A DNA stretch of 64,000 bases from Streptosporangium brasiliense (GTDB lineage: Bacteria; Actinomycetota; Actinomycetes; Streptosporangiales; Streptosporangiaceae), in assembly GCF_030811595.1 (NCBI RefSeq), contig NZ_JAUSRB010000002.1:868001-932000 (forward strand). The letters are read 5' to 3'. Every line of letters starts with the position of its first letter. Position 1 is the stretch's first letter. Shown here one piece after another: positions 7,704-34,968 of the stretch. A model generated the notes under the pieces. That model saw only the letters and a list, made by a program, of their open reading frames with translations. It made no database searches and was not told the origin of the DNA. The translations under genes were made by a program, and so were the position numbers.

Positions 7704-7777
7704 GCGGGTGTAGTTCAATGGCAGAACATCAGCTTCCCAAGCTGACAGCGCGGGTTCGATTCCCGTCACCCGCTCCA
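7704..7777 (+). tRNA. tRNA-Gly(CCC)
   Basis: The acceptor stem GCGGGTG/CACCCGC, D arm (GTTC-AATGGCA-GAAC), anticodon stem TCAGC/GCTGA with loop TTCCCAA (anticodon CCC), and T arm with GTTCGATTC all fold. CCA is encoded at 7775-7777. This is the only complete copy: six further copies downstream contain only the part from the anticodon loop to CCA, so this is the integration target of the accreted elements. Confidence 0.96.
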
Positions 7778-7785
7778 AGCAAGAA

Positions 7786-7819
7786 AAGCCAGGTCAGGGA
7801 TTGTTTCCCGACCTGGCTT
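7786..7819 (+). terminator. hairpin directly downstream of tRNA-Gly
   Basis: aagccaggtc...ggga pairs with tcccgacctggctt across a small loop with one bulge. Versions of the same hairpin follow most of the downstream att copies (for example at 20606-20643, 24087-24122 and 26262-26301). It therefore travels with the crossover region. It is probably the tRNA transcript terminator. Confidence 0.7.
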
Positions 7820-7849
7820 CCGTACTTTCCGAGCCTCATTTCGATCTTC

Positions 7850-7868
7850 CGTGCCCGTTACGTGCCCG
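7850..7868. promoter_or_regulatory. arm-type repeat inside attL
   Basis: cgtgcccg-tta-cgtgcccg, two 8-base direct repeats 11 bp apart. It overlaps the integrase stop codon and lies 73 bp from the core. The same 19 bases recur at 20434-20452 inside attR and at 24154-24172 after the third att copy. Inferred to be integrase arm-binding sites. Confidence 0.6.
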
Positions 7869-9051
7869 ATCCCCTTTGATCTTCGTTCTTCCGTAGGGCC
7901 TCCTCGGCGAGCCTGCCCATGCTGTCGGCGATCATCTTGTCCCGCTCCTCCTCCGTGTGCAGATAGATCAGCGCCGCCCGCGTTGTCGAGTGCCCCATCC
8001 GGTTCATGAGCTCTCGGAGCGTCGCGCCCGACCGGGAGGCGAACGTGTTGCCCGTGTGGCGGAGATCGTGGAAGTGGACACCCGAGATCTTCGCCTCCTT
8101 GAGTGCCTTGGCCCAGATCCGGGTGAAGGCCGGCCGCCGCAGCATGGCCCCCTTCGCGCCCAGGAAGACATACGCCTCCTCGTGATCATCGGTGTACCTG
8201 TCCAGGTGCACGCGGAGTTCGGAGATCACCACTTCGGGCAGGGCCACGGTGCGCCTGCCCGCCGCGGACTTGGGTGGGCCGACGGTCACCGATCCGTCCT
8301 TAAGCTCGGTGGTGGACCTTGTGATCTTGACCGTCCGGGCGTCCAGGTCGAGGTTCTTGCGCTGGAGTGCCGCCAGCTCGCCCCATCGCAGACTGCCGAA
8401 AGTGGCCAGGAGCACCAGCGCCCGGAACCGTGGTTCGATCGCGCCGGCCAGGGTGAAGAGCTGTTCCATGGTCAGCGTCGGCCGCTCGGGCGACTCCTCC
8501 TTGCCGCCGCTCTTGATCTGGCACGGGTTGGACTTGATCATCTTGTCCTCCACCGCCGTGTTCATGATCGCCTTGAGCAGCCGGTACGCCTTGGCGACGG
8601 TGACCGGCCCGACTCCCCCGTCCAGGAGCGTCTTGCGCCACTTGCGCACGTGAGTCGCCTTGATCTCGCTCACGGCCAGGTTGCCGAAAGTCGGGACCAG
8701 GTGCAGGCGGAGCAAGCCCTCATAGAGCTGGACCGTCTTGGGCCGCAGGCCGGGGCGCTCGTCCACCCAGTCGGCGCCGTACTCCTTGAAGGACACCTTC
8801 CCGAGGTCCGGATTGCTCCAGTCCTCGGCGAGGATCTCGGCCTCCTTCTTGGTCAGCCAGATCTCGGCGTCGCGCTTGGTCGCGAAGGTCTCGGGGGCCG
8901 CCCGGTCGATGTCATCCGGCCCCTTGTAGCGAGCCTGGAACCGGCCGGACGGGAGTTGCCGAACGCGTCCGAAACGCCTCTTGGCCGTCTTCCTTCCAGC
9001 CGAACGCCGGGACTCTTCCCCGGGGGTGGAAACAGCGGACTTGGCCATCAC
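7858..9051 (-). CDS. int: site-specific tyrosine integrase of the AICE
   Basis: A 397-residue phage-type integrase. The N-terminal AP2-like DNA-binding strand region (RFGRVRQLPSGRFQARYKG) is followed by a SAM-like core-binding domain (about 85-180) and a catalytic domain with Arg222 (GSLRWGELAAL), His328-x-x-Arg331 (HFHDLRHT), His354 (MGHSTTRAA) and nucleophile Tyr363 (ALIYLHT). All catalytic residues are present. It should recombine attP with the tRNA-Gly 3' end. Its gene ends 80 bp from the tRNA and its stop codon lies in an arm repeat. The GTG-ATG start overlaps the xis stop, with GGAGGG just upstream. Confidence 0.96.
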   Translation of the reverse strand: MMAKSAVSTPGEESRRSAGRKTAKRRFGRVRQLPSGRFQARYKGPDDIDRAAPETFATKRDAEIWLTKKEAEILAEDWSNPDLGKVSFKEYGADWVDERPGLRPKTVQLYEGLLRLHLVPTFGNLAVSEIKATHVRKWRKTLLDGGVGPVTVAKAYRLLKAIMNTAVEDKMIKSNPCQIKSGGKEESPERPTLTMEQLFTLAGAIEPRFRALVLLATFGSLRWGELAALQRKNLDLDARTVKITRSTTELKDGSVTVGPPKSAAGRRTVALPEVVISELRVHLDRYTDDHEEAYVFLGAKGAMLRRPAFTRIWAKALKEAKISGVHFHDLRHTGNTFASRSGATLRELMNRMGHSTTRAALIYLHTEEERDKMIADSMGRLAEEALRKNEDQRGSGT

Positions 9052-9302: not shown

Positions 9303-11048
9303 GCGGCCACCCCCGGCGGTGAAGTTGCCGAAAGGTCTTCGATGGGTCGTCCGTCCGCTCTGGCTTGGAGTTCGAGGAGGCGTCTTCGGGTGCGGTGCCG
9401 ATTGGCGACGCCCCGGAGGAGGCGCTTGGCCAGCGGAGTGCGGGTCGGGTCCTTGGTGGAGACCGGCCGCCAGACGTAGCGGTGCGGGTCGGTAGGCGTC
9501 TCGTCAGGCAGGCCGAGCGCATCGAGCACCCAGGCCCGGCGATCCTGCTTGTGTTCGCGCAGGGTCTTGTTCGACCACTTGCGCGAGACCAGGACCCGAC
9601 GACCGGCGTAGCCGAGGTGTTCGGGCTTGTGAGCCTTGCTGCGGCACCGCCTTGCTGCGGCACCGGCCCGGCACCATGCCCGCCTTGGCGCCCTTGGGCT
9701 GCACGCCGTACCGCAGCCAGTTCGCACACGTCGGCGAGCACGGTTCGTAGCGCAGCGCCTCGACCATCCGAGCAGCGTGATCACGCCGCGCGTGGTAGCC
9801 GATGTCATCGGGGTCGAGGGTCTCCCCCAGGCTCTTGGTCAGGTACTTCGTCAGATAGCCGATGCGCTTGTGAGCGTCCGGCGACCCGGCGACGATGCCC
9901 TGAACATCGACCTGATCACCGAAGCGGAGCACGTGCAGCGGTTCCGCCTCGTCGTCCTGGTCGAGCTTGTCGAGCGCCTCGTCCCAGGTGGGCAGCAGTT
10001 CCCCCGTGGCAGGGTCGAGGTAGTCCCCCGCCTGCCCGTCCGAGTTCGGCTCAGCGAGTTCATCTCGCGCAGCCCATACCGGCAGATGGTCACCGTCGAA
10101 GCGGACCTCATCCACCGACGGCCACCACACCTGGTGATAGGTCGCGGCGGCGATGGCCTTGATCTCCGCGCGGGGCAGGGTGCCGCGGATCGCCATATGA
10201 AGATGTGGAGCAAGCCGCTTCTGCGGTTCGACGGTGGCGAAGTACTGGACGTCATAGCCGGCCACCCGGCGGAGGTTCTGCACGAACCGGTCGACGAGCT
10301 TGGAGAAGTGCAGCGCATCACGAGCCGCACGGGCGTAGTCGTAGCTGGTGGGATCGACCGGCACGCCCTGACCGGCCCGGATCTTGCCGTAGGAGGGCAG
10401 GGTGAGGGTGACGAATAACGACGGCCGGTAGACCCTGCCATCGGAGCCGGTGAAGGTCCGGCCGAGGGTGGTGTCTGTCCTGGCCCGCTTGGGCAGGTCC
10501 GGAGCATCCTGCCGCCTGCGAGTGGAGCGGGAGCGCTTGGGAGCTGTCCGGCCGCCCAGGACGTTGCCCCGCATCCCGGCGGCGTTGATCTCTGCGTCGA
10601 TTCCGGCGATGGCCTCGTCCCAGTCGCCGGTGTCCTCGCCGTCGCGGTCGGCCTGGTCGCGCTTGGCCTGCACGTCGGCGCGGAATTCGATCAGCCATCG
10701 CTGTTCTTCGGTGGAGGGGTTGGGTTCGGCGACCGGCTCGGCCTCCAGGTGCCAGCCCTCGCGACACTGAGCCATCCGGAGTTGTCTGTTGCGCTTGGCG
10801 CACGGCGGGCACTTGGCCTCTTGGGTGGCACCACAGGGGAGGTCGAAAGGTTCGGTCATGCCGGTGTGAGTGTCGAGCCGTCGCAGTTCGATGGGCCGGA
10901 TGCAGACGCCGTTGTTCTTGGCGACCTCCACGGCGACGTCCAGGGCCAGGGGGAGGGTCTGTCGGACCAGCCGGGGAAGCGTGCGGTCCGAGGCGTCCAC
11001 CGGGGTATCGGCCGAAGCGGTGGAGGAGCCTGTGAGGGGGTCGGTCAC
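9299..11048 (-). pseudogene. RepSA-like rolling-circle replication initiator, frameshifted
   Basis: The first about 460 codons (from 11048) encode an intact N-terminal and catalytic part: CPPCAKRNRQL cysteine cluster, SLFVTLTLPSYG, the HUH metal motif LAPHLHMAIRG, and the Tyr motif IGYLTKYLTKS. At 9633-9664 an exact 16-base tandem duplication (gccttgctgcggcacc twice) shifts the frame. After it the expected C terminus continues in another frame (SKAHKPEHLGYAGRRVLVS, then RKWSNKTLREHKQDRRAW) to a TGA that overlaps xis by ATGA. Without repair the product would have about 50 aberrant residues and stop at 9504. Removing one copy restores one continuous frame of 577 codons including the stop. Confidence 0.88.
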
Positions 11049-11239
11049 ATGGTCTCCTCTCGGCCGATCAGGTCAGCGCAGAGCCGGTAGGCGTCGCCAT
11101 AGGGGTCTTTGCGGAGTCGGGCGGTGTCGAGATCGACGATCAGCGTCACCTCGGCGAGGTCGCAGCCGTCGAAGGTCCGCAGGCGCCGGAACGGCAGACC
11201 GTCGATCTCGGCCGGGGTGCCGTGAATGGTGATCCTCAT
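11045..11239 (-). CDS. small AICE protein of unknown function
   Basis: A 64-residue acidic protein (MRITIHGTPAEIDGLPFRRL) with no catalytic motif that I recognise. Its stop overlaps the rep start (ATGA) and its start overlaps the traB stop, so it is certainly translated within the operon. Small proteins of this kind between traB and rep are common in AICEs; the role is unknown. Confidence 0.75.
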   Translation of the reverse strand: MRITIHGTPAEIDGLPFRRLRTFDGCDLAEVTLIVDLDTARLRKDPYGDAYRLCADLIGREETM

Positions 11240-12684
11240 CAGGCCGCGTCTCCCATCTCGATCGGCGTGGTGTCGCCGGTGAACAGAGCCGCCATGTCCC
11301 TGATGTCGGTATCGGAGACGTAGGCCGCGCGGACCCGGATCGGGTCGGGTGAGGATTCGAGTCGGACGTAGGCGACGCCCGCGCCCTGCTCCGGGCGAGG
11401 GGAGATCAGGTCGGCCAGGGCGCCCCGGTCCCGAGCGCCGTCACCGAGGACCATGTCCACCTGTTCGGACTCGTCCAGCCGAAGCGCGATCTTGTCGGGG
11501 AACAGGTTGCGGATGTTCATGACCTCCTTGCGCGGGTCTTGGAGGGCGGCCATGACGCCGACGCCGACCGCCCGCCCTTGGGTGGTGAGCGTGGCCAATG
11601 CGGCGGAGATGCGGACCTTGAGGCCCTTGTCGGACTGGTAGGCGGTCAGGAACGCGACCTCGTCGACGAGCACCAGGAGGAACGGGTCTTCAGTGGTGGG
11701 AATGTGGTTGCGCTGGACTCCGGCGAACCGGCCCGCCCTCTCCTGCATGATCTTGACCGCTGCTTCCAGCAGGTCGGCGCACGCGGCCGGGTCGGCGGCG
11801 TAGTGGTCACCGAAGATCGCACGGCCGAAGGACAGTTCCATGAGCTTGGGATCCAGCGCCCATACCTGGACCAGGCCGGCCCGCATCGCAGGGAGGAGAC
11901 CCCGGATGGCCGACCACAGGAACGAGCCCTTGCCTGCCCCGGTCGCCCCGGCGATGAGGACATGTGTGCCGTGGACCTTGAGCCGGTAGGGGGAGCCGTC
12001 CTCCTGCTTGCCGATCTCGATCGGCCCGACCGAAGCTTCCGCGGGGATGGCGACAGCCGGCAGCGGGACGGCCAGCGGGTCACACCGGGGGAAGGTCAGC
12101 CGCAGACGACCCGACCGCTCCACGGTGACCCGGCACGAGGTCGCGCCGAAGCCGTGAGCGAGGTGGTCGATACGGTCGGCCCAGTCCTTGACCGACTGCC
12201 CGCTGATCATTTTCACCGTGAGCACGTCGGCCCAGAAGGTGCAGCGGATACGGATGAGCCGGGGCAGGTAGTCACGGCCGCGCACGTGCCGGCCGAGACC
12301 GGAGACGATCATTACCGGTTGCCAGTGCCGCCGATAGACCCAGACCAGCCGCCACCAGGCCAGCAGCCGCCAGCCGATCCAGCGGTTGAACGAGGTCCGC
12401 TCGAAGAACGCCCAGGGGATGAGGACCGAGACCGGGGCAGTGACCGCGATCAAGGCGGCACGCCAGTCGTACATGGTCCAGATAACGCCGGGGACGGCGA
12501 CGACGGCCGAGGCGATCGGGTGCCGCCAGAGCAGGCGTACGGCGCCGACCAGCAGCCGCCAGGCGAAGATGACGAGGGTGACGATGGCCGGGGTCTGAAC
12601 CACCGCCGGGCGGAAGACCACGGCGGTGTCGGGGGTGGTGGAGACGAGGTGTTGCGCCTCGTCTCCAGGCAGTTTTTTGAACAT
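11239..12684 (-). CDS. FtsK/SpoIIIE-type conjugal translocase (TraB/TraSA)
   Basis: A 481-residue protein. Two or three N-terminal membrane segments (AIVTLVIFAWRLLVGAVRLL and VVAVPGVIWTMYDWRAALIA) anchor it. The motor domain has Walker A GATGAGKGS at about residue 220 and Walker B LLVLVDEVAFL. Single proteins of this type move double-stranded DNA between mycelia in Streptomyces-type conjugation, without a relaxase. No spd spreading genes are visible nearby. Confidence 0.92.
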   Translation of the reverse strand: MFKKLPGDEAQHLVSTTPDTAVVFRPAVVQTPAIVTLVIFAWRLLVGAVRLLWRHPIASAVVAVPGVIWTMYDWRAALIAVTAPVSVLIPWAFFERTSFNRWIGWRLLAWWRLVWVYRRHWQPVMIVSGLGRHVRGRDYLPRLIRIRCTFWADVLTVKMISGQSVKDWADRIDHLAHGFGATSCRVTVERSGRLRLTFPRCDPLAVPLPAVAIPAEASVGPIEIGKQEDGSPYRLKVHGTHVLIAGATGAGKGSFLWSAIRGLLPAMRAGLVQVWALDPKLMELSFGRAIFGDHYAADPAACADLLEAAVKIMQERAGRFAGVQRNHIPTTEDPFLLVLVDEVAFLTAYQSDKGLKVRISAALATLTTQGRAVGVGVMAALQDPRKEVMNIRNLFPDKIALRLDESEQVDMVLGDGARDRGALADLISPRPEQGAGVAYVRLESSPDPIRVRAAYVSDTDIRDMAALFTGDTTPIEMGDAA

Positions 12685-13954: not shown

Positions 13955-14462
13955 GTGGACGACGGGGTTGTGCGCTTGGAGCCATGGGGCGATGAGGACG
14001 CGGCCTGGTATGCGGAGACTGTGCGCGACCCAGAGATTCAGCGCTTCACTACCGACTCGCCGACTCTGGACGCCGCACAGGTTCAAGCTGCCATCAATCG
14101 CCTGCGCAGCGCCGACAACGAAGAGGGCTTTCTCATCCGTGACGCGGCGTCTGGCGCGCCTCTGGGCAACATCGCTTTAGCCCATAACGGGCAGGCAGGA
14201 GAGGTGTCTTACTGGCTGGCGCCCGAGGCCCGGGGGCAGGGAGCAGCGACCCGGGCTCTGGTCTTGTTCACTGCGTGGATCTTCAAGAACACCACGTTGA
14301 CCGAACTCCGCCTGCGGGCGCATCAAGACAACGTGGCATCACAGAAAGTCGCCCTACGCGCAGGCTATCGGCGTGATCCACAGCGCGACGGTCGCCAAGA
14401 GGTCAAAGGGCATGGTGTGGCCAATGCTCGGCTTCGCGTTGGCCCGGCCCGAACCGGCCTAA
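13955..14462 (+). pseudogene. GNAT acetyltransferase with C-terminal frameshift
   Basis: From the GTG at 13955 the frame reads VVRLEPWGDEDAAWYAETVR, then SYWLAPEARGQGAATRAL (acetyl-CoA loop) and ASQKVALRAGYRRDPQRDG, a RimJ/RimL-like N-acetyltransferase. Near 14400-14415 the reading should move by one base. The alternative frame gives KGMVWPMLGFALARPEPA and stops at 14462, exactly tail to tail with the GntR gene. The uncorrected frame runs 113 bp into the GntR gene to 14572. Probably inactive or altered, unless the base call is wrong. Confidence 0.65.
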
Positions 14463-15190
14463 CTCAGCGGGTATGCATCCTCCAACTCGTGGCGGTCAGC
14501 GGGGAGCAGCACCTCCACCACGGCCAGAGCCGTACCCGAGGCATCCCGAACCGCTCCGTAGACCGCCAGTAGCGGCGTGTTCTTCGGCATGCCGAGTCGC
14601 TTGGCCTCATCCGTGGCGGGCATGCGGGCGGTGATCTGTTCCACGATGTGATCGAACCGCACGCCCTTACGGGACTGGAGGTGCTCGCGAAGTCCCTGCG
14701 GGAGCGGGTCGGCACTGGTCAGGTCGGTGCCCTCGGACAGCTCCAGCGGCACCCACACCGAGACGACCTCAGTGGGTTCGCCGTCCCGGCTGACCAAGCG
14801 CCGGCGCAGGAACGCCTTGGTCTTCGGGGCGAGTCCGAGCAGGGCCGCAATGCGGTTAGGTACGGCTACCGCCGCCGCTTCGATCACCTCACCGGCCGAC
14901 GCGGTCTCCGGGGCGGTCAGGTACGCCTGTCCGGGGCGGGGCTGTTCCGCCGAGGCCATCGCCGGACGGCCGCGCACGAACCGGCCCTTGCCCTGCTGGG
15001 AGTCGATCCATCCCTGCTCGCGCAGCACCCGGAGGGCGGCGACGACGGTGGGCCGGGAGACGCCGAACTCGTTGATGAGCTGGTTCTCACTGGGCAGCAG
15101 CGAGCCCGGCGGGTAGTCCCCCGACTCGATGCGCCGTTGAAGCGCCTGCACGAGCTGTGCGTACTTCGGCGGTACGGACTCTAGCGACAT
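14459..15190 (-). CDS. GntR/UTRA repressor, KorSA-like
   Basis: A 243-residue regulator. The N-terminal winged HTH (PPKYAQLVQALQRRIESGDY, then PPGSLLPSENQLINEFGVSR) is followed by a UTRA ligand-binding domain (about 90-240, ending LAVVEVLLPADRHELEDAYP). GntR proteins of this type (KorSA) repress pra and their own gene in pSAM2-like elements. The divergent position relative to the AICE block and the palindrome at 15223 fit autoregulation. Confidence 0.88.
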   Translation of the reverse strand: MSLESVPPKYAQLVQALQRRIESGDYPPGSLLPSENQLINEFGVSRPTVVAALRVLREQGWIDSQQGKGRFVRGRPAMASAEQPRPGQAYLTAPETASAGEVIEAAAVAVPNRIAALLGLAPKTKAFLRRRLVSRDGEPTEVVSVWVPLELSEGTDLTSADPLPQGLREHLQSRKGVRFDHIVEQITARMPATDEAKRLGMPKNTPLLAVYGAVRDASGTALAVVEVLLPADRHELEDAYPLS

Positions 15191-25550: not shown

Positions 25551-25631
25551 AGCCAGAAAGGCCCAGGTCAGGGATGGTTCCGAGCCCTGGGTGGCAAGGA
25601 TCTGACCGCCTTGATGTGGCACGATGCCTGC

Positions 25632-26210: not shown

Positions 26211-26254
26211 TTCCCGAGCTGACAGCGCGCGTTCGATTCCCGTCACCCGCTCCA
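26211..26254 (+). repeat. att copy 5
   Basis: Matches the core with two changes (cccgagctg, gcgcgcgttcg) and keeps CCA. The hairpin gggcccaaatcaggga...tcccgatctgggcc follows. Confidence 0.9.
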
Positions 26255-26368
26255 AGCCAGAAGGGCCCAAATCAGGGATGATTTCCCGATCTGGGCCTTG
26301 TTTTCAGTGTTTTCCGACTCGACTGTTCGAACTTCGGTGATCTACAGCTCTGGAAACATCTCAGAAGA

Positions 26369-26668
26369 TCAGCTCGCCTCGCGCAGTGGCTGGAACTGAA
26401 CGCTCAGTCGCATCTCCAGAGCCTCCGCGAGCCGCTCCAGCATTGGGATGGTCGGCGTCGTCCCGCCCGCCTCGAATCGTGCCACCGCCGGCTGCTTCAA
26501 TCCTGCACGTTCGGCCAGCTCGCTCTGGGTCAAGCCGAGCTGCTCATGGCGTAGCCTTACCGCCTCACCCAGCTCGAAGCGGATCCTGGCCGCCTCGTAT
26601 GCCGCTCCGGCGCTCGGGCGGCTCATGACCTCAGCCCGCTTGGCGCCCCAGCTCTTGCGCTCGCCCAT
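26369..26668 (-). CDS. XRE-family antitoxin (HigA-like)
   Basis: A 99-residue protein with one Cro/C1-type HTH (RLRHEQLGLTQSELAERAGL, then KQPAVARFEAGGTTPTIPML) and a short C-terminal strand (RLSVQFQPL). GAGGAG lies 8 bases before the ATG. It directly follows the RelE/HigB-like toxin relic in the same orientation, the toxin-first order of HigBA. It appears intact although its toxin is not. Confidence 0.82.
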   Translation of the reverse strand: MGERKSWGAKRAEVMSRPSAGAAYEAARIRFELGEAVRLRHEQLGLTQSELAERAGLKQPAVARFEAGGTTPTIPMLERLAEALEMRLSVQFQPLREAS

Positions 26669-26673
26669 GCCGA

Positions 26674-27023
26674 TCACTCCTCGTCTGCCGTGTGCGCATC
26701 GGCGATACACCACTGCATGGCCCGCCACGCCCGCTCATCTCGGCGAACTCACGCATCCGCTGTTTGTGGGACACCATCAACATGATGATCCGTCGACCTG
26801 GTGCGATCCAGTAAGTGATCCGTACCGCCTCCCGGTCGAGGTGGAAACGTAGCTCACGCGGCTTGCCACGGAGCTGACGAGGGACGAGGTAGGGCTCATC
26901 CAGCAGGACGCCATGTTCGGCCGGCAGGTCGACGTAGAACGCCGCCGTCTCCTGGTCCTACTGATCAAGCATGTCGGACCACTCATCGACCTCTGGCCCC
27001 AGTTTCGCCTCTCCCCAGTTCAT
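26674..27023 (-). pseudogene. RelE/HigB-like toxin with in-frame stop and frameshift
   Basis: From ATG 27023 the frame reads NWGEAKLGPEVDEWSDMLDQ, then an amber codon at 26958-26960. It continues ETAAFYVDLPAEHGVLLDEP, LVPRQLRGKPRELRFHLDRE and RITYWIAPGRRIIMLMVSHK, then QRMREFAE, an unmistakable HigB/RelE fold core. After REFAE one base is missing. The next frame gives DERAWRAMQWCIADAHTADE and a TGA 5 bp before the antitoxin start. Two independent lesions make it inactive. Confidence 0.82.
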
Positions 27024-27082
27024 AACGTGGACGTTATGGCGATGGCAGGTATCACGTCCCGAAAATGCTCGGCTCTCTCCGG

Positions 27083-27268
27083 CAGGAAGAATCGATGACG
27101 GACGAGGCCATCAAGCATGCGGGCACATGCGCGGGTGTGCCATGTCCCCATGCATGCTCCTCCCAGTCCTCCCAACAGGAAGAATCGATGACGGACGAGG
27201 CCATCAAGCATGCGGGCACATGCGCGGGTGTGCCATGTCCCCATGCATGCTCCTCCCAGTCCTCCCAA
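27083..27268. repeat. exact 93-bp tandem duplication
   Basis: Units 27083-27175 and 27176-27268 read identically. The unit is 31 codons long, so open frames on both strands are repeated in phase (plus strand: MTDEAIKHAGTCAGVPCPHA). I do not support a gene here. The rest of 27024-27415 holds nothing recognisable. Confidence 0.88.
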
Positions 27269-27415
27269 ACGGCGTTGATCACGTGCCGGATCCGCCGGTC
27301 CGTCCTGGATGGTGGCCCGTGATCCGCGCCCGCACGAGGCCGCGCGGACGGATCTCAGGCGGTTGTACGAATAATTCACATGACGACCCACGTGAAGATC
27401 GACTATGGATACCTC

Positions 27416-27871
27416 ATGCTGATTCATGTGCGCCTAGAGGACCTGTGCCGGGAGACCTGGGAAGACGTGGCCGACCTGACGGTGGCCGACGACCAGTCCG
27501 ACCTCATCGCATCAAACCTGTACTCGATCGCCGAAAGCCGCTTTCTGCCGGGCTTCGTGACCCAGGCGGTGATGCACGGCGAGTGCGCCGTGGGCTTCGC
27601 GATGTATGGCCCTGATCCCGACGACGGCCAAGTGTGGCTGTACCGCTTGATGATCGACAAGTCTCACCAGGGCAAGGGCCTGGGCCGGGCCGCCCTCCGG
27701 CAGATCGTCGCGCATGTGCGGGACGGGCTCGGCGCGCCGGTACTGCGGCTGGGCGTACGCGCCGACAACGTCGTGGCCAAGGCTCTCTACACCTCTGCCG
27801 GATTCGCCCCCACCGGGCAGAGCTTCGGCGAGGAGGAGATCCTGGAACTCCGCCTGTCCGCCGACGACTGA
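27416..27871 (+). CDS. GNAT N-acetyltransferase (spermidine-acetyltransferase-like)
   Basis: A 151-residue enzyme: LEDLCRETWEDVADLTVADD, then YRLMIDKSHQGKGLGRAALR (acetyl-CoA loop) and NVVAKALYTSAGFAPTGQSF. It resembles PaiA/SpeG-type acetyltransferases of polyamines or antibiotics. The ATG at 27416 begins the domain; an ATG at 27380 is possible. Neither has a clear ribosome site. Island cargo. Confidence 0.82.
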   Translation: MLIHVRLEDLCRETWEDVADLTVADDQSDLIASNLYSIAESRFLPGFVTQAVMHGECAVGFAMYGPDPDDGQVWLYRLMIDKSHQGKGLGRAALRQIVAHVRDGLGAPVLRLGVRADNVVAKALYTSAGFAPTGQSFGEEEILELRLSADD

Positions 27872-28055
27872 GCCCGTGGGGACCTCCCGCCGTGACGGCT
27901 GAGGGCCTACGCCAGCGCTGTTGTCGCGAGGCTCTGGCCGAGGAGTTCCACGGACGGTGCCGCACAGCCCGCAGAGCGCTTGGCGCACCCCCCGAGCTAC
28001 TCGACCAACGCTTATCCGGTGAAGTCGTCCGATGCTTTGCCGGGAAGCACAGAGA

Positions 28056-28379
28056 CTACTGAGACCGCTTCCCCGAAAGCATCACCAGCACTATTCCCGG
28101 CACGAAAAACACATACGACAGTACGAGCAACGCCAGGTCCGGCCCAGATCCCGGCTCCATCACGTCTTGACCCAGCGCTCCCGTGAAGCCGAAGAGCGCT
28201 ATCAGAATCACTCCCCACCCATAGCGTCGAGGCTTACGGGGGTCACGGGGAAGGAAGCGCAGGCGAGGCACCCGATTGGTCACCAAGGTGTAGACGCCAA
28301 GCGCAGCAATCAGGCATGAGACCCCCAAAAGAGCTACCTGCGTCACCCTGAGATCCATCCAGATCAGCTCCTTCGCCAT
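28056..28379 (-). CDS. small membrane protein of unknown function
   Basis: A 107-residue protein with three hydrophobic segments (VALLGVSCLIAALGVYTLV; YGWGVILIALFGFTGAL; LALLVLSYVFFVPGIVLVML). A basic loop sits after the first. No family recognised. Its promoter region contains repeat R2, which ends 28 bp upstream of its start. Confidence 0.7.
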   Translation of the reverse strand: MAKELIWMDLRVTQVALLGVSCLIAALGVYTLVTNRVPRLRFLPRDPRKPRRYGWGVILIALFGFTGALGQDVMEPGSGPDLALLVLSYVFFVPGIVLVMLSGKRSQ

Positions 28380-28406
28380 TCAGAAAAACCGTCCTCTGAA
28401 AAGAGG

Positions 28407-28520
28407 TTGCCGAATTGTTCTTGTAGGGGTCAAGGCGGCGGCGCGGCGCGCCGCCGCACGGCCCAGCGTCGCGGACCCCGGCCGTGCATGCGGCCTGGGG
28501 GCCGGTCACGGCTGGGGCGC
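28407..28520. repeat. dispersed GC-rich repeat, copy R2 (divergent)
   Basis: Shares ttgccgaattgttcttgtag and the ggcggcgcg palindrome with R1, then diverges. It has a gggggccggtcacggct remnant of the second stem. Same orientation as R1. Confidence 0.65.
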
Positions 28521-28559
28521 ACTCGGCCGCGTTTCGCGGAAGCCACCAACCCCTGAAGC

Positions 28560-28883
28560 TCAGCAGTGGTCTTCGACGAGCACCAGACGCTCACCGCTCG
28601 ACCGCGCCCACTCCGTCACCTCGATGACCACGCTGGGATCACTCCCGGCGTGGCTGTAGCGACGCCGCTGACGCCCTCGCTCCGCAGAAGAGTCCGCCCA
28701 CATAACCGGCCCCGACATTCGCCAGGAGCCCACACGTACTGAGGGGTCAGCGAACAACTCGGCTGCGCGTTGGGCGCTGATGCCATAGGTACGCCCGACA
28801 ACCCGCGCCCACTCCCGGCCCGCGTCGTCCCACAGTCGGTCGTTGAGACGGCGATTGAGGTTGCCGCCCTTCCGCTCCGCCAC
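28560..28883 (-). CDS. hypothetical protein
   Basis: A 107-residue basic protein from a GTG, with RLNDRLWDDAGREWARVVGR and a C-terminal strand VVIEVTEWARSSGERLVLVE. No family recognised. Codon use is normal for the genome. It may be an island toxin, immunity or regulator gene, but nothing in the sequence says which. Confidence 0.55.
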   Translation of the reverse strand: MAERKGGNLNRRLNDRLWDDAGREWARVVGRTYGISAQRAAELFADPSVRVGSWRMSGPVMWADSSAERGRQRRRYSHAGSDPSVVIEVTEWARSSGERLVLVEDHC

Positions 28884-29002
28884 GGTGCCACCATAGGTCC
28901 GAAGAGGCGCCTCCGACGGGAGCCTCTGGCTCGTGACCGTTTCCCTGCGGGCGGGTCGACAGCAGACGGGATGATCAGACAGGCGGGGCGCGGCGGGTGT
29001 CG

Positions 29003-29380
29003 CTAACGCGTGAACTCGCTCCGGAGGAAGCCATGGAAGAGCGAGAACGGGCTATATCGTGATCGCTGCTCTTGGCCAAGGAAAAGATAGTCGGCGAGGA
29101 TGTGCCCGCGGAAGCGATCATTGCTGACAACGAAAGTCACAGTCTCCGCTTCACCTTGCACCCGATCGTCGATATCAACCACGAGTCCACCCGACATCGC
29201 CACGGGAAGGTTGATTTGGTAGACCGGCTTGAAGAGAAGTTCGATGTGCGGCGCATCCGGCTCGAACTCCGTCCGCAAAACGAGCTCGCTATGCGAAGGC
29301 ACGTAGCTCCAGATGCGGAATCGGCGATCTGGAAAGCTCACGGGAAGGCATAGCCGGCCGGGGTAGCGATCATGGCTCAC
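29003..29380 (-). CDS. hypothetical beta-rich protein
   Basis: A 125-residue protein starting SHDRYPGRLCLPVSFPDRRF from a GTG. It alternates hydrophobic strands (RIWSYVPSHSELVLRTEF, HIELLFKPVYQINLP) and ends in a Phe-rich helix. Likely one compact domain. No family recognised. It is close to an immunity-protein gene, so a toxin/immunity link is possible but unproven. Confidence 0.6.
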   Translation of the reverse strand: MSHDRYPGRLCLPVSFPDRRFRIWSYVPSHSELVLRTEFEPDAPHIELLFKPVYQINLPVAMSGGLVVDIDDRVQGEAETVTFVVSNDRFRGHILADYLFLGQEQRSRYSPFSLFHGFLRSEFTR

Positions 29381-29681
29381 GACGAGAGCCCACCACGGCC
29401 AGACCGGCCAGGCAAGACGACGCCAGGAAACCTCCAGGGATACCGGCCAGGACAGTCTCCGCGTCCTGAAACGACACCTCTCAGACGTGATCTACCGTGC
29501 CCTCGTCGAGGACCACAACAGCCACAGCAACAAGGGATTAGGGCAACAGCGTTCAACCCCTTGCACATAGGAGCGTCAGGCGGGCGAAGCATGTGCTTGG
29601 AGTGCGTCCATAATCGGACGTAGCCACCCGGTAGGACGCCCCACAAGCTCCTGTTCTCGTTCGCCCGATGGAAAAGGCACG
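29381..29681. other. gene-free gap
   Basis: About 300 bp of lower G+C sequence with no supported frame, repeat or hairpin. It should contain the promoter of the immunity gene. Confidence 0.5.
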
Positions 29682-30587
29682 GTGAGTATGTCGTTCGACC
29701 ACGCGCATGAACTCTGCATCGAGATCGGGCGGGCCGTGAAGGCTGGTGCCCCGGACGGATGGCAGGAGGTCGATGTCCATCGCTGCCAGCTCGGCACCTT
29801 CAGCACAACCGTGGTCACCTACCAGATGGCGGACGGATCACAGCAGATCCGACCCGCCGAGGGCATCGACGACCTTTTCCACCAGTTGAAGGTGGCCGAG
29901 TACAAGCCAGGTGAGGGGACCTGGTCCGTCTGCCGGCTCGGCTACAGCCCGCGCGGTAAGTCGTACAACTCCATGATGTCCACCTTCGACGGGGAGTCGC
30001 CCTTCGCCCAGGGCATCGAGGTGCCCGCTCCGGCCTACGTGGAGGAACTGACCATGTTCCCGCGCAAGTCGGCTCTCATACCGCCATGGATGATCGCGGC
30101 GTGGCCCGAAGATGTGCTCCTGCCAGAACCCAGCTCCACCCCGACCTCGCCGGCAGACAGAGAACTTGGCCTGGCCGAGCCTCCCCTTGGGACCATGGTC
30201 GTGCGAACCGTCGGTCGAGACGACGGCCCGGAGCTGATCGTTCTTGGGATGGCCGAGCACGAGGACGGCACCGGGAATGCCTTGATCTTCATGGTGTCTA
30301 CGGAGGAACCGGACAAGCAGGAGGCCGAGGCGGACATGGACACGTACTGCATCGTCCGAGAAGACCAGGCGGGCACCACCTACGGCGGCGTGACTCACTG
30401 CGAGATCGCCTCCGGCCGTCTGACACTTCACTTCACCGAGGAGGCTGCGAAGGAGTTGCACGTGGAGCCGGTCCTCAGGGCCGATCTCCAGATCGGTGAC
30501 GAGAGTGTCGAACTCCTCCGAAGTAGCCTACGAAAGATCTTGCTGTCCGGCTGTCACGACCAGCACCCCTACCGCATGCAGCTCTGA
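29682..30587 (+). CDS. two-domain immunity protein (YezG/DUF600-like plus Imm10)
   Basis: A 301-residue protein. Residues about 1-110 (LCIEIGRAVKAGAPDGWQEV, then GEGTWSVCRLGYSPRGKSYN) resemble YezG-type immunity proteins. Residues about 185-290 (TGNALIFMVSTEEPDKQEAE, DTYCIVREDQAGTTYGGVTH, RLTLHFTEEAAKEL) match the Imm10 pattern. Immunity proteins bind and block cognate polymorphic toxins. No toxin gene is adjacent, so this is an orphan immunity gene, which would protect against kin carrying the toxins. The GTG start has AAAAGG upstream. Confidence 0.75.
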   Translation: MSMSFDHAHELCIEIGRAVKAGAPDGWQEVDVHRCQLGTFSTTVVTYQMADGSQQIRPAEGIDDLFHQLKVAEYKPGEGTWSVCRLGYSPRGKSYNSMMSTFDGESPFAQGIEVPAPAYVEELTMFPRKSALIPPWMIAAWPEDVLLPEPSSTPTSPADRELGLAEPPLGTMVVRTVGRDDGPELIVLGMAEHEDGTGNALIFMVSTEEPDKQEAEADMDTYCIVREDQAGTTYGGVTHCEIASGRLTLHFTEEAAKELHVEPVLRADLQIGDESVELLRSSLRKILLSGCHDQHPYRMQL

Positions 30588-30703
30588 TCGTCATGCCATC
30601 AGCGCGCCATTGGACAGGGTGACAAGGGCTCAACCACGATCACTCACGACCAGCCCCAGCCCCACCCGCAGGTCAGCCGCCCTATGAGGCATGATCCATA
30701 CAC

Positions 30704-30746
30704 TCCCCAAGCCGACAGTGCGAGTCCGGTTCCCGTCACCGCTCCA
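30704..30746 (+). repeat. att copy 6 (degenerate)
   Basis: Five or more changes from the tRNA 3' half and one base missing in the acceptor stem (cgtcaccgctcca). The most eroded copy, presumably the oldest or least constrained. The hairpin ggcccaggtcaggga... follows in decayed form. Confidence 0.8.
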
Positions 30747-30823
30747 CTCAAAGGCCCAGGTCAGGGATGGATTCTCGATCCGGCTTTTGATCTTTCCTGA
30801 GCTCTTTCGATCTTCCGCGCCCG

Positions 30824-30973
30824 TTACGTACCCAACCCATCTTGATCTTCGTTGTTCCGCATGGTCTCTTCGGCGAGTCTGCCCATGCTGTCAACGATCA
30901 TCTTGTCCCGCTTCTCCTCCATGTGCAGACAGGTCAGCCATGTGCAGATAGATCAGCGCCGCTCGCGTGGTCC
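30824..30973 (-). pseudogene. second integrase C-terminal remnant
   Basis: Reads like the end of the integrase at 7858: the stop lies in a decayed cgtgcccgtta arm repeat (gcccgttacgtaccca), then SMGRLAEETM...DDQ-like codons and a piece encoding ALIYLHMAD with an internal duplication. It breaks off where repeat R3 begins. Confidence 0.7.
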
Positions 30974-31133
30974 AGCGGTGGTGCGCCGCGCCGCCGTACC
31001 CGGCCCTCCGCCGCCTGCCGTCCAGACATGCGGTGCGGGCGCCGGTCCTGGCCGGCGGTGCCCCGGACCGTACCCGCACCACGCACCCGCCGTAACCGAT
31101 GCACTCACCGACCTCAGCGACGTGCCGCCGCCT
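30974..31133. repeat. dispersed GC-rich repeat, copy R3 (interrupts the integrase remnant)
   Basis: Starts cagcggtggtgcgccgcgcc, lacking the first about 30 bases of R1. It then matches R1 and R4 through the gggcgccg stem to the cgccgcctc end. It joins directly to broken integrase sequence, so it inserted or recombined there. Confidence 0.7.
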
Positions 31134-31475
31134 CGTCGCCTCATGTCCACTTCGACCCGCCTCCTCACGGCTGCTGGCAGTGACACGGACTTCAACGTGT
31201 TCGTGCATCGGGTCTCCGTAGTAGTGAAATGAATAGTCGCCAAGACTGCCCGAAATATCGACGCTAGGCCGCAAGTTGTGGCTCACTGGCGAGGCAGTCA
31301 GAATGCGAAAATGCTACACCCCTGAAATCTATGAGAAATAACGATCAGGCAGGTCTTCCAGGAAGAAACACCATCTGCATAAACGGCCTTACCAACACCA
31401 GAGGCCGGGACGTGACCATGGCACCCCTCCGATACGCCTTGACCAGAACCCAAAAAGGTCGACATAGTCGGACGA

Positions 31476-32354
31476 ATGGAATATGAGGAGTTGGCCTTCG
31501 GCGGTGACGACCCTGACCACGAGCCAGGACTCGGCCCCTGGGTGGCGGCGCATACCAAGCTGCTGGCCATCTGCGCCGTAGCACTGGTGGTGATCGGCCT
31601 GGCCGGGGCCGGCGGCTGGTATCTGTACGAGCGGTCCTGGCTGCCCCAGCCTCCGCCGGATATCGCACTGTCCCCGTCCTTGGAGTTCGAGGTGGTCATG
31701 TGCGGATGCCCTGGCCTGACCGCGGCGACCGTTGAGCAACGGCAGGAAACCGAGGCCATGCTCCGGGCATTGCCCCAGGTGACGTCGGTCGAGATGCGGA
31801 GCGGCCAGGATCTGTCCGATCAGTGGCGCAGAAGCTTCAAACGGATCGGTGACGTCAGGCGAGCGCAGAGTTCGGGTCTCTCCGGCGATGTCCTGCATGG
31901 CACGCTCCGTCGCGCTGAGGACTTCCCTGCCGTGGTGGAAAAGATGAGGTCGGCGCCGAGGGTCTCCACCGTGTCGCGGTCGGGGGTGAATTTCTGGGCA
32001 GGCAGGGCTGAGGCTCAGATCTCTCTATGTGGGAAGGACGTCATCTCCCAGGCCGCATCCGAGTGCCGGCAGACCCGGCGTGCGGGAGCGGCGGGGATGG
32101 TCACCGAGCGGGAGAAGGCGGCGATCGTCGCTCGACTGCGGGACCTGCCCGGAGTGGAGACGATTTACTTCCAAGACCCCGGTCACGCCCTGAAACTCGC
32201 GAAGCTCTCCGATCCGAAGTCCGAGTCGGATGGGACCTACCCGGGTTCCTTCTTCGTCAAGTTCTCCGACCCGGCTCTCGCCCGCGCGATTGCCCCCGCC
32301 ATCGGGCCGATGCCCGGCGTCCTGGCGGTGTGGCCGGTCTTGTCGAAGGAATGA
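31476..32354 (+). CDS. membrane protein with FtsX-like extracellular domains
   Basis: A 292-residue protein with one N-terminal membrane segment (LAICAVALVVIGLAGAGGWY, about residues 30-50). Two outside domains follow that resemble the FtsX extracellular domain: LEFEVVMCGCPGLTAATVEQ...ALPQVTSVEMRS, and AEAQISLCGKDVISQAASE...LRDLPGVETIYFQ. Each pairs a cysteine-bearing strand with 'LxxLPxV'. The ABC permease core and FtsE are absent. In FtsX this domain binds partners that activate wall hydrolases. Here it may be a decoy or stand-alone regulator. The start has a weak ribosome site. Confidence 0.68.
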   Translation: MEYEELAFGGDDPDHEPGLGPWVAAHTKLLAICAVALVVIGLAGAGGWYLYERSWLPQPPPDIALSPSLEFEVVMCGCPGLTAATVEQRQETEAMLRALPQVTSVEMRSGQDLSDQWRRSFKRIGDVRRAQSSGLSGDVLHGTLRRAEDFPAVVEKMRSAPRVSTVSRSGVNFWAGRAEAQISLCGKDVISQAASECRQTRRAGAAGMVTEREKAAIVARLRDLPGVETIYFQDPGHALKLAKLSDPKSESDGTYPGSFFVKFSDPALARAIAPAIGPMPGVLAVWPVLSKE

Positions 32355-32644
32355 CGGACGGGGGCGTGGGGAGCTTTGCCGCGTGTAGGCGATTCGGTCA
32401 CCGCTCGGAGAAGCGCCTCCCTGAGCTGTTCCTCAAGTCGAGCAGGGAAATGCCCCCAGCGTGAGAACAACTGGATGCCAACTTGGTGAGAACCAATCGA
32501 GTCCTCTCAGGTCAGTGAAACTCGGGGTATCAAGAAGCTTGAGAACCTACAGTCGTGGCATCAAGGCAGAGATCAGGCGCCCCGGCTGACATCAGTCTGA
32601 TCATTTGATGAGTCGCCGACTGGCCTAAATGCATACCACGAGCT

Positions 32645-32795
32645 TTGTCGAATTGTTCTTATGGGTATCGAGGCGGTGGTGTGCCGCGCCGCCGTACCCG
32701 GCCCTCCGCTGCCTGCCGTCCAGACATGCGGTGTGGGCGCCGGTCCTGGCCGGCGGTGCCCCGGGCCTCCGCCGCACCACGCGCCTGCCGAACCA
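32645..32795. repeat. dispersed GC-rich repeat, copy R4
   Basis: ttgtcgaattgttcttatgg, then ggtatcgaggcggtggtgtg and the conserved gggcgccggtcctggccggc stem. It closely matches R3 over about 120 bp and R1 over the whole length. Confidence 0.72.
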
Positions 32796-32831
32796 AACGC
32801 CCTCGCAGACCACCGGCCCGCCACCAAGTTC

Positions 32832-33227
32832 TCAGGACTCCTGCGACTCCAACACCCCATCCTCGGTCCAACGCCACGAACGCGCATGCTGTACGGCCTT
32901 CCACGTCTCAGAAGCCGCCACCGCATGAGCTATCCAGTCCCGCAGCGCCGGCAGGGCGGTCTCACACAGCTCCCGCCGGACCTCAGCACGATCCACCGAA
33001 CGAATGGGATAGACGCTCACCGCAATCCCATAGACCTCTGGATGGAGGCCGCCCGCCTGTCCAGGACGCCAGTAGGCCTGCAACACCCAGTAGTGCGGCA
33101 CTTCACCCCAGAAGTTCAGCTCACGAACGTGCTCAAAGCTTTCACCGAGCCCTTCATTCAAATCCGACCTGGTCAGAGACCAAGAAGCGCCCCGGGCCAA
33201 TCTGCGATCACGAGCAGACACGTCCAC
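32832..33227 (-). CDS. hypothetical protein
   Basis: A 131-residue protein from a GTG: VSARDRRLARGASWSLTRSD, NEGLGESFEHVRELNFWGEV and EVYGIAVSVYPIRSVDRAEV, with Trp-rich helices near the end. It overlaps the 3' end of the preceding gene by 55 bp, so the two are linked. No family recognised. Confidence 0.65.
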   Translation of the reverse strand: MDVSARDRRLARGASWSLTRSDLNEGLGESFEHVRELNFWGEVPHYWVLQAYWRPGQAGGLHPEVYGIAVSVYPIRSVDRAEVRRELCETALPALRDWIAHAVAASETWKAVQHARSWRWTEDGVLESQES

Positions 33228-33859
33228 CTCACATCACTCAGCCCCGCAGTCTGAAGGCCAGACGGCAGCCTCCGGCGGGGGCGCTCCGGCTCCGAGATGA
33301 TCGCTAACGGTGTGTTCACCGTCAATCGGTCTGTCGGCGGCTGGGGTAGGGACCTGATCATCCCTTCTGCCGTCGACCCGGACAAGCCGAGCAAGGTGAT
33401 CCTGTGCCGGTCGAGCACCTGGTCGACCTGGTGGCACTCCTGCTCCCACCCCGGTGGGGCCGTGTCCGTGACTTCCGACAGCCTGGGCAGGCCGCGGGCG
33501 CCACTACCACCGGGTCCGGACGACCGGACGTCGAGTGCGAAGCGCGCCGCCAATGGAGCGAGCCGGCACAGCGTCAGAGGTAATCCCTCGACCTCTGTCC
33601 AGCCGTCCGCCGAGCGGCGCATCGACCCTTCGCGCTTGGTCAGGAGGACATCGACGTAGGACGCATATCCCGAGCCGTAATGCCCGAACTCCGCGTGATG
33701 GACGATCAACGACGGCAACCGGTTGAGATCGTCGACAATCCTCCGGAGGAACCCCTCCACGGCAGCAGGCCCAGCGGCCCACGCTCCCGCCGTACTCGCC
33801 GGCTCGTCATTCACAGCGTTTCGCAGGGCCGTCAGGTCAGTGGCCGGCGCCCTGTTCAT
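33173..33859 (-). CDS. hypothetical protein
   Basis: A 228-residue protein: helical N-terminal half (VEGFLRRIVDDLNRLPSLIV, GSGYASYVDVLLTKREGSMR), then ECHQVDQVLDRHRITLLGLS and GSTAEGMIRSLPQPP. Relics of the GSTAEGMIR-encoding piece occur at 23592 and 28955. The C-terminal about 40 residues overlap the next gene and may be frameshifted. Function unknown. Confidence 0.6.
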   Translation of the reverse strand: MNRAPATDLTALRNAVNDEPASTAGAWAAGPAAVEGFLRRIVDDLNRLPSLIVHHAEFGHYGSGYASYVDVLLTKREGSMRRSADGWTEVEGLPLTLCRLAPLAARFALDVRSSGPGGSGARGLPRLSEVTDTAPPGWEQECHQVDQVLDRHRITLLGLSGSTAEGMIRSLPQPPTDRLTVNTPLAIISEPERPRRRLPSGLQTAGLSDVRWTCLLVIADWPGALLGL

Positions 33860-34122
33860 TGATCCGCTCCTCGACCCGGCTCCGCGCCTGTCTCATGAAC
33901 GATAGCGAGGACACCCGGTACGCATGCTCCCGTCGAGAGATCGACGGAGGGCCGTGACAAGCGGTCTGTCATTGCCCACAATCCTCCAGAGCTCTTGATC
34001 CTGCTGCCGTTGCCTCCAAGAGTGTCCGTCTGGGCATGGGGCCTGGCCTGCGGTCTCTGGCCACTCCCGGACGGGACAGGAACGCATTTGACCAATGCAT
34101 GGCCGGTGGAGAGGATCAAGGA

Positions 34123-34671
34123 GTGCATATCGAGTTCCTGAGATTCTCGCCCGATGACGTAGAACCACTCGTCAATTTCCTGACCGAAGAAGAATGGCCA
34201 TTCCATGCGGGGACGCAGGACCGGGAGACGGTCAAGCGCCGGGCCGTCGAAGGCCTTTATGACAACGAGGAAACAAGAACGTTCTGGGTGCTGGTAAACG
34301 GCGAGCGCGCGGGGTTGGTCAAGCTACAGGACCTCGCCGACGACACCCCCATGTTCGACCTGCGGGTACGGCAGGCTTGGCGGGGGCGGGGCATCGGCAC
34401 GGAGGCGGTGGCCTGGCTGACCGACCACCTCTTCACCGAATTGCCCGACATCATGAGGATCGAGGGCACGACTCGCCAGGACAACCACGCGATGCGGGCA
34501 GTCTTCCGCAAGAGCGGCTACGCGAAGGAGTCGCACTACCGAGAGGCGTGGCCAGGTCCGGACGGCATCCGCCATGACTCGATCGGCTACGCGATCCTCC
34601 GGCGCGACTGGCTTTCCGGGACGGTTACCCCCCCGGACTGGGAGGACGAACTCGTAAGCCCAGACGAATGA
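34123..34671 (+). CDS. GNAT N-acetyltransferase (RimJ/RimL-like)
   Basis: A 182-residue enzyme with all GNAT elements: VHIEFLRFSPDDVEPLVNFL, LRVRQAWRGRGIGTEAVAWL (acetyl-CoA loop) and NHAMRAVFRKSGYAKESHYR. The GTG at 34123 is chosen because GGAGAGG lies 8 bases upstream and the domain begins there. The ATG at 34099 is the alternative. It is the last island gene before the distal att copy. Confidence 0.83.
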   Translation: MHIEFLRFSPDDVEPLVNFLTEEEWPFHAGTQDRETVKRRAVEGLYDNEETRTFWVLVNGERAGLVKLQDLADDTPMFDLRVRQAWRGRGIGTEAVAWLTDHLFTELPDIMRIEGTTRQDNHAMRAVFRKSGYAKESHYREAWPGPDGIRHDSIGYAILRRDWLSGTVTPPDWEDELVSPDE

Positions 34672-34924
34672 TCGGCCCCAGGTCCTGACCGCCCTCTCGA
34701 AGAGTCTGCCGGTCACAGAGCGCCCGGATGATCCTGAACCCAGCAGAGCATCCGCCGTGACCGCGTGCCAGCTGCCTGCCAGAACAGGCGGGACACACGG
34801 AGAACCACGGGGACTCACGGGGAACCGCAGGGAACCACGGTCACACGGCCCGCCCTGACCTGCGCACCTGCTTTCCCGGCTCAGGACGGCTTTCCCAGCT
34901 CAGGACAGCAAGGTCAGCAGATGA

Positions 34925-34968
34925 TCCCCGCGCTGACAGTGCGGGTCCGATTCCCGTCACCCGCTCCA
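34925..34968 (+). repeat. att copy 7 (distal end of the island)
   Basis: The core with changes cccgcgctgac, agtgcgggtccg; CCA kept. Upstream at 34747-34850 are cgtgccagctgcctgccag and repeated ccacgggga/cacggggaa units like those before copies 2 and 4. Confidence 0.9.

Follow-up and report, generated by a model that had tools for sequence, protein, structure and literature searches.

The window analyzed here, a stretch of 64,000 nucleotides (64 kb) from Streptosporangium brasiliense, carries behind its tRNA-Gly(CCC) gene a tandem array of copies of the 3' half of that gene. We read it as an accretion array, in which the scars of mobile elements enclose a shared, turning-over pool of small genes and position carries a weak gradient of age; we give this reading as a whole a probability of roughly three in four. 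Its parts differ in strength. It is almost certain that elements of the actinomycete integrative and conjugative element (AICE) family have integrated serially at this tRNA, and the small cassettes between the scars are very probably mobile as units; that these cassettes would travel by cis-mobilization is the view to which we incline by a small measure.

ARAGORN calls a single tRNA in the window, tRNA-Gly(CCC) at 7704-7777 on the + strand, and the 3' half of this gene, from about position 7733, forms the recombination core. When the whole 64 kb was scanned on both strands without gaps (score of at least 14), exactly six extra copies of the core emerged, all on the + strand and spanning the region from near the anticodon loop to the CCA end. 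Number, place and orientation agree with the description in the earlier note; the tRNA itself counts as copy 1.

7704-7777, +: complete tRNA-Gly(CCC) (ARAGORN; core scan), left attachment border (attL) of interval 1
20555-20599, +: core copy 2, 45/45 matching positions, right border of the AICE
24038-24081, +: core copy 3, 41/42 over 24038-24079
25507-25550, +: core copy 4, 43/44
26210-26254, +: core copy 5, 43/45
30704-30747, +: core copy 6, 30/35 ungapped over 30706-30740, the most degenerate copy
34925-34968, +: core copy 7, 35/37 over 34932-34968, outer border of the array

Comparison of the flanks reveals a one-base deletion in copy 6 beyond its ungapped match, and copy 7 abuts an alpha/beta-hydrolase gene (34957-35961, - strand). 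Going outward, the six copies differ from the core by 0, 3, 1, 2, 12 and 5 mismatches, a series that is not monotone. An array of functional tRNA genes, an outcome that the earlier note itself had named as fatal to its reading, is ruled out, as ARAGORN calls only one tRNA in the window and none at the six partial copies, each of which lacks the 5' half.

If the intervals between the copies are inserted elements, left ends of elements are expected to the right of copies 1-6 and not to the right of copy 7. This is the pattern found by flank comparison: a common motif links the right flanks of copies 1-6, and the right flank of copy 7 shares nothing with them.

7782-7818, +: element left-end motif directly after the core, common to copies 1-6 (flank comparison)

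By inspection the motif forms a hairpin, probably a terminator; a stem-finder test for terminators scored 13 of 180 ends, with a criterion too strict to inform. To the right of copies 1, 3 and 6, the flank continues into homologous 3' ends of integrase genes. On the left side, similarity comparison shows the flank of copy 2 to be homologous with that of copy 4, and that of copy 4 with that of copy 7, and it gave no match for copies 3, 5 and 6 at the same threshold. Along with the integrase remnants after copies 3 and 6 and two statistical trends across relatives given below, these flanks bear out the earlier suggestion that the copies are attachment (att) scars of repeated integration at the tRNA. 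Nor do the segmented relatives carry the copies apart from mobile DNA, the other finding that was to count against that suggestion: there, too, the copies border element ends.

Interval 1, which adjoins the tRNA, is a near-complete AICE that contains an integrase, a RepSA-type initiator, an FtsK/SpoIIIE-type protein, a GntR regulator and an AIPR/AbiU cargo gene, and the intervals further out hold integrase fragments and single genes, as had been noted before. The ends of the element carry direct repeats of the form GTGCC-N5-CGTGCC at a fixed distance from the core. Such repeats come in three types, placed 73 bp after the core at left ends and 121/122 bp (types I/II) or about 105 bp (type III) before it at right ends, and they look like arm sites of the integrase.

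7849-7868, +: left arm-type repeat, type I (CCGTGCCCGTTACGTGCCCG), about 73 bp after the core
7858-9051, -: tyrosine integrase of 397 amino acids, reading toward the tRNA (Pfam Phage_integrase 1.8e-19, SAM-like N domain)
9504-11048, -: RepSA-type replication initiator (Pfam RepSA 7.2e-83)
11239-12684, -: FtsK/SpoIIIE-type transfer protein (Pfam FtsK_SpoIIIE 3.9e-12, above the gathering score), which we take to be TraSA-like
14459-15190, -: GntR/UTRA regulator (Pfam GntR, UTRA), presumably KorSA-like by its position
17565-19292, +: AIPR/AbiU-like abortive-infection protein, AICE cargo (Pfam AIPR 7.3e-49; PADLOC AbiU 1.5e-129)
19320-19507, no strand assigned: G+C-rich repeat of about 190 bp (repeat comparison)
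20433-20452, +: right arm-type repeat, type I, about 121 bp before copy 2

The integrase gene lies 81 bp from the core and matches general phage-integrase families; an integrase beside the att site, a RepSA-type initiator and an FtsK/SpoIIIE-like protein are among the features by which an AICE is recognized. In the window, arm repeats precede copies 2, 3, 4, 6 and 7; those before copies 3 and 6 are of type III, and those before copies 6 and 7 are degenerate.

Repeated cores of this kind are common in the family. We searched genomes with a 41-base core pattern, allowing at most three mismatches and counting the tRNA itself, and obtained matches in all 16 genomes of the genus (that of the window included), with 2-11 in each, the count for one of them (G002) being inflated by a repeated contig. 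In a sample of 200 genomes of the family, 176 contain at least one match, 112 at least two, 80 at least three, 38 at least five and 17 at least seven, up to a maximum of 14. The earlier judgment that so many recognizable scars at one tRNA are unusual does not survive these counts. The reversed pattern gave no matches in the 16 genus genomes and none in the 200 family genomes, which excludes a chance origin of the copies. Hosts of arrays include complete or near-complete assemblies (G003 and G004 in one contig, G015 in two and G014 in three), so that assembly error is not their general cause. The scar status of the extra matches was checked in the segmented loci, which cover part of the family genomes: the 32 segmented loci that contain the tRNA have one complete tRNA apiece, and the largest array holds 15 cores at one tRNA (G172).

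For an interval census we cut the arrays of 38 relatives, comprising the nearest congeners and genomes picked for many core matches, and of the window at their cores, which yielded 180 intervals from 39 genomes; the array of G010 lies outside this set. One interval (G002_T0) extends over a stretch of its array that is inverted and hence duplicates another (G002_i0); it is dropped where n = 179 and is still counted in the size, gene-content and strict arm tallies made on 180 intervals. Small units abound: 90 of 179 intervals are shorter than 2 kb, and 55 of these measure 0.8-1.4 kb. According to tblastn with proteins of the window and its relatives, these 90 intervals contain no complete integrase, no replication gene and no transfer gene, and 18 integrase fragments; the 40 intervals of at least 5 kb contain 16 complete integrases, 15 replication genes and 14 transfer genes. 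The small units often consist of one gene or an overlapping pair, and in some of them our simple caller found no open reading frame (ORF). Pfam was run on 16 of the 72 ORF clusters and matched 15, among them PIN (three clusters), a Gp49-like protein with a helix-turn-helix partner, DUF5615, DUF433, PemK, MazE and Fic, and further SMI1/KNR4, glyoxalase, sigma-70, DUF6461 and mycothiol-S-transferase/DinB families. Judged by these families, some of the pairs are apparently toxin-antitoxin-like. In lacking functional integrase, replication and transfer genes by tblastn, the 90 small intervals resemble cis-mobilizable elements (CIMEs). They have cores on both sides by construction and element-type right ends in 77 of 90 cases; beyond these right ends and the 18 integrase fragments, tblastn found no gene of an integrative and conjugative element (ICE) in them.

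The arm repeats set the small units apart. Among the 19 elements with a complete integrase, scored by a common rule, 15 have a left arm and 16 a right arm. The integrase-free units below 2 kb (n = 71 after one shorter than 400 bp had been dropped) have a right arm in 49 cases and a left arm in 2, with a mid-unit control at 1 of 71, and the larger integrase-free intervals have a right arm in 15 of 39 (p 0.0025). The small units thus keep one arm, and do so more often than larger remnants. The right end of the small unit F01, which encodes a PIN-domain protein, is of type I in one genus and of type II in the others (G166 and G216, as against G002, G006, G011, G014 and G045), which points to right ends being exchangeable while the cargo stays unchanged.

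Unit families present in at least two genomes number 22. F01 is found in 8 genomes of three genera, and the distance between a core and the start of the unit agrees to within 15 bp in all 8. Six aligned copies of its PIN gene differ 191, 99 and 797 times at codon positions 1, 2 and 3, a pattern that indicates purifying selection. It is conceivable that each small interval is a separate AICE that decayed in place and never moved again; the integrase fragments in 18 of the 90 small intervals and in two intervals of the window would suit such inert relics, as would the decay of cores and arms in the window. We hold this to be unlikely in view of the identical left border of all F01 copies, the selection acting on the F01 gene, and right arms that are commoner in small than in larger integrase-free intervals.

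Sharing, order and identity of the intervals point to movement. Different genomes share 42 pairs of intervals, half of them (21) from F01, and the outer neighbors are unrelated in 40 of the 42; the remaining two are one F01 pair and one other. When the order of shared families was compared, 7 comparisons were concordant and 7 discordant, and in 9 of 28 small pairs the identity of the unit exceeds that of the host locus, that is, of the DNA upstream of the tRNA. Together these data speak for moving units and against a frozen inherited array.

The same data limit what position can tell about age. The earlier note proposed a relative time series, in which every new arrival inserts at the tRNA and displaces whatever is older to the outside. 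A gradient of this kind does exist. Complete integrases occur in the tRNA-adjacent interval of 15 of 30 arrays, compared to 4 of the 149 intervals elsewhere (p 1.6e-10; the tRNA belonging to 38 of these 149 is on another fetched piece or on the other strand), and core mismatches increase outward with a mean rho of 0.38 over 23 arrays, 17 of them positive (permutation p 0.0004), where divergence is counted against the core of the window instead of each genome's own tRNA, which adds noise. A clean series is another matter: the outer neighbors of shared units are nearly always unrelated, concordant and discordant orders balance, the mismatches in the window rise and fall, and 7 of 30 tRNA-adjacent intervals are integrase-free units below 2 kb. 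Tried by core divergence against rank, by neighbor sharing and by order, the time series leaves only a weak gradient; as a strict rule it is contradicted, and we consider it improbable. Position within an array is a weak, statistical indicator of age.

A further possibility is one long ancestral array that was inherited vertically and lost units lineage by lineage through deletion between cores. Shared units would then be bordered by cores, as they are; two adjacent units do stand in the same order in G006 and G045 and again in G052 and G132, as vertical inheritance or block transfer would give; and in 19 of 28 small pairs the unit is more diverged than the host locus. Loss cannot alter order, however, and half of the comparable orders disagree; moreover, the 9 of 28 pairs in which units are more alike than the host locus run counter to such a history, which we regard as the least probable of those weighed here.

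Several points also weigh against the accretion array with its moving pool of small genes. The two cases of conserved adjacent order and the 19 of 28 less similar pairs are among them, and the order test comprises 14 comparisons, some of which are not independent, just as half of the neighbor pairs come from the single family F01. Part of the data scored for arm motifs had also served to define these motifs, and a right arm is absent from 13 of the 90 small intervals under a loose rule and from 22 of the 71 integrase-free small units under a strict one. In eight elements with a complete integrase (G012, G014, G125, G129, G132, G172, G181 and G197) left and right arms are of different type, so that arm type does not map simply to the integrase; these elements are perhaps fusions of an AICE and a cassette from which the inner core has disappeared. 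Of 179 left ends only 86 show the left-end motif, which 16 of 42 outermost flanks carry as well, so that the outermost recognized core is often not the true end. The segmented genomes were chosen partly for many cores, which biases the interval statistics toward rich arrays. Finally, the evidence for movement comes from sequence comparison, with excision, transfer and circular forms being postulated.

The arm asymmetry suggests how an integrase-free unit with half a site could move, namely by a ride in cis, and the distribution of the repeat of about 190 bp fits such a ride as well. This repeat, which includes a G+C-rich palindrome, is found in the window at 19320-19507, 28407-28519, 30975-31132 and 32645-32825. 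The segmented set has 33 intervals that match it, but just 1 of the 90 intervals below 2 kb does so. Of 17 tRNA-adjacent intervals with the repeat, 9 have it 0.9-1.6 kb before the right end. It is a possible candidate for an origin of transfer or replication.

In the accretion model that we favor, an element of the AICE family would recombine its 44-bp core, reaching from the anticodon loop to CCA, with the 3' half of the tRNA. Integration would regenerate a complete tRNA with a new hairpin after it, and the former 3' half would remain as a scar, as the anatomy of the window shows; newcomers would usually enter next to the tRNA, as the statistics on integrases indicate. The second class of element would consist of core-bordered units that measure about 1 kb and contain a single gene or a toxin-antitoxin-like pair, most of which have kept the right arm and lost the left one. 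An AICE that sits between the tRNA and such a cassette would provide the integrase and the left arm, and the cassette the right-most core and the right arm; AICE left arm and cassette right arm would make up a complete attachment site of the circular form (attP). AICE and cassette could then leave as one circle and enter a new tRNA-Gly(CCC), from which the AICE would later exit alone, depositing the cassette. By this cis route cassettes would be reshuffled between species.

A different route would resemble that of integrons, with cassettes excising and inserting as circles of their own and the AICE integrase acting in trans. Integrons combine an IntI integrase and its attI site with attC palindromes on the cassettes and build arrays of small cargo at a fixed platform; tycheposons are cargo elements at tRNA genes. 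The site described here differs from both in being a tRNA half with phage-type arm repeats, and attC-like sites lay outside the analysis. Borders at the cores, the reshuffled order and the one-gene or operon cargo, which resembles that of integrons, are compatible with independent circles, and so are the seven tRNA-adjacent units below 2 kb that have no integrase at all. With a left arm in only 2 of 71 units, however, an independent circle would have a one-armed attP, and the putative origin repeat is nearly absent from small intervals; we find this route doubtful. As a more far-reaching and tentative proposal, to which we do not give even odds, tRNA-Gly(CCC) may serve in this family as a standing platform for gene capture, near to a chromosomal integron in function and built from phage-type parts, at which compact one-armed cassettes with one gene or a toxin-antitoxin pair, immobile by themselves, leave and enter in the wake of whatever AICE has arrived there, and so pass from genus to genus and change their order.

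The remaining intervals of the window illustrate the range from small cassette to decayed element.

20600-24037, +: interval 2, no integrase found, type III right arm at 23920-23943
24082-25506, +: interval 3, type I left arm, integrase fragment, DEDDh/RNase_T gene (24521-25165, -), type II right arm at 25384-25403
25551-26209, +: interval 4, a 0.66-kb unit of family F10 with a deaminase-like ORF (25611-26078, +), Pfam match below the cut-off
26255-27067, -: unit F02 at the start of interval 5, HigB/HigA-like pair, right edge approximate
27068-30703, +: rest of interval 5, Imm10-domain gene (29682-30587, +), degenerate type III right arm at 30590-30613
30748-34924, +: interval 6, integrase fragment, FtsX_ECD gene (31476-32354, +), GNAT acetyltransferase gene (34036-34671, +), degenerate type II right arm at 34763-34782

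Integrase fragments are present in intervals 3 and 6, and none were found in intervals 2, 4 and 5. In interval 2, an ORF (21318-22268, - strand) whose protein has no Pfam match extends over a tract of short-period repeats (about 21450-21780). No arm repeat was found in interval 4, whose family F10 is also present in G009. The F02 unit of the window has a stop within the HigB-like frame. F02 is matched in five more genomes (G001, G003, G008, G015 and G045), and in G015 one copy is the sole recognized interval, directly behind the tRNA. Two matches lie outside recognized cores, one in G015 (L065:9068-9750) and one in G001 (L050:15760-16287), where a predicted tRNA-Pro is about 1.7 kb distant; it may be that the HigBA-like unit can enter elsewhere, too. 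The rest of interval 5 contains an exact 93-bp tandem duplication (27083-27268), which is evidently recent. Together with interval 6 it may represent fused remnants, an idea suggested for interval 6 by the two copies of the repeat of about 190 bp inside it.

At the outer border, the congener G004 has a core copy against the same hydrolase gene that adjoins copy 7, with homology that starts at the core and runs outward; the outer junction is therefore shared and old, and the inner side is different. In G004 this junction is on the opposite strand, at a distance of about 100 kb. The hydrolase is matched at 68% or more in only 3 of 15 congeners, and in one of these, G014, the homologous stretch starts only past the core. 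No empty site with the outer flank of the window was found among the single-match loci of G017, G018, G019 and G022, in which homology to the window is limited to the upstream genes and the tRNA; G018 has a degenerate second core copy 5.1 kb on. Among the matches listed, DNA found in 12 of 15 congeners lies near 52.3-54.4 kb of the window, so that the region from 35 to 52 kb may be another accessory layer. Inverted cores occur about 8-140 kb from the tRNA in G002, G004, G005 and G007, and the arrays or their surroundings seem to hold endpoints of large inversions. The genome of the window itself has two core copies in other places, each on the - strand (G000:C2:985822, L120:10820, -; G000:C2:6782568, L121:7566, -), each with an element right end and the left-end motif; one is inverted about 110 kb downstream and the other nearly 6 Mb distant. 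They are either a displaced part of the array or a sign that secondary sites are used.

Much of this has counterparts in the literature. In Streptococcus salivarius, CIMEs and microCIMEs in tandem with ICEs and integrative and mobilizable elements have been described as moving by accretion and cis-mobilization; as in our arrays, these are att-bordered units without recombination and transfer modules, the cargo-bearing ones measuring 1.2-13 kb and the most decayed ones lying farthest from the target gene (PMC7563491). The composites described there comprise two or three elements, with rpmG, rpsI, fda and rplL among the target genes (PMC7563491), whereas here up to 15 cores occur at one tRNA, units peak near 1 kb, integrase-free units can adjoin the tRNA, and families recur shuffled across genera. 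The ssrA islands of Dehalococcoides likewise form tandem islands with over a dozen direct repeats of the 3' end of a small RNA downstream of its gene, some suggested to be cis-mobilizable without integration genes; they depend on a serine recombinase and a tmRNA gene, and the portions of that account at hand describe no class of small cassettes (PMC3146451). For AICEs with integrase, replication and transfer genes, tandem insertion at tRNA 3' ends is on record in Streptomyces and Frankia, including co-excision of two tandem AICEs in Frankia (PMC3218068), and cis-mobilization of remnants has been suggested (PMC9513070, PMC3218068); the cases given in these sources are one to three elements plus a trace at tRNA-Arg (PMC9513070) and tandem pairs (PMC3218068). 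An actinobacterial CIME that needs an adjacent ICE for transfer is TR1 of scab-causing Streptomyces with its neighbor TR2, a single pair of 20 kb and 157 kb at the aviX1 site (PMC8369830).

Serial tRNA integration, accretion, CIMEs and, in Dehalococcoides ssrA, over a dozen scars at a single RNA gene are thus already known (PMC3146451). A literature search, with subscription journals mostly outside its coverage, found no account of this tRNA or of small-cassette AICE arrays. What is new relative to the literature searched is a family-wide array consisting largely of one-armed cassettes of about 1 kb that are shuffled between genera.

These findings bear on the biology of AICEs and of the family that hosts them. 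An inability of AICEs to share a site in tandem has been raised as a possible limit on their number, in a paper that also reports tandem pairs (PMC3218068); here AICEs share a site on a large scale across a family. The locus presents a defined class of minimal hitchhiking unit, made up of a core, a right arm and one gene, and predicts that half an attachment site would suffice if a neighbor brings the other half. It also offers small genes, toxin-antitoxin-like ones among them, in a natural collection whose borders are defined almost to single-base precision, and it cautions that the order of scars at a tRNA is not to be read as a time series. The tRNA-Gly(CCC) locus resembles a shared landing strip for small genes more than a clean fossil record.

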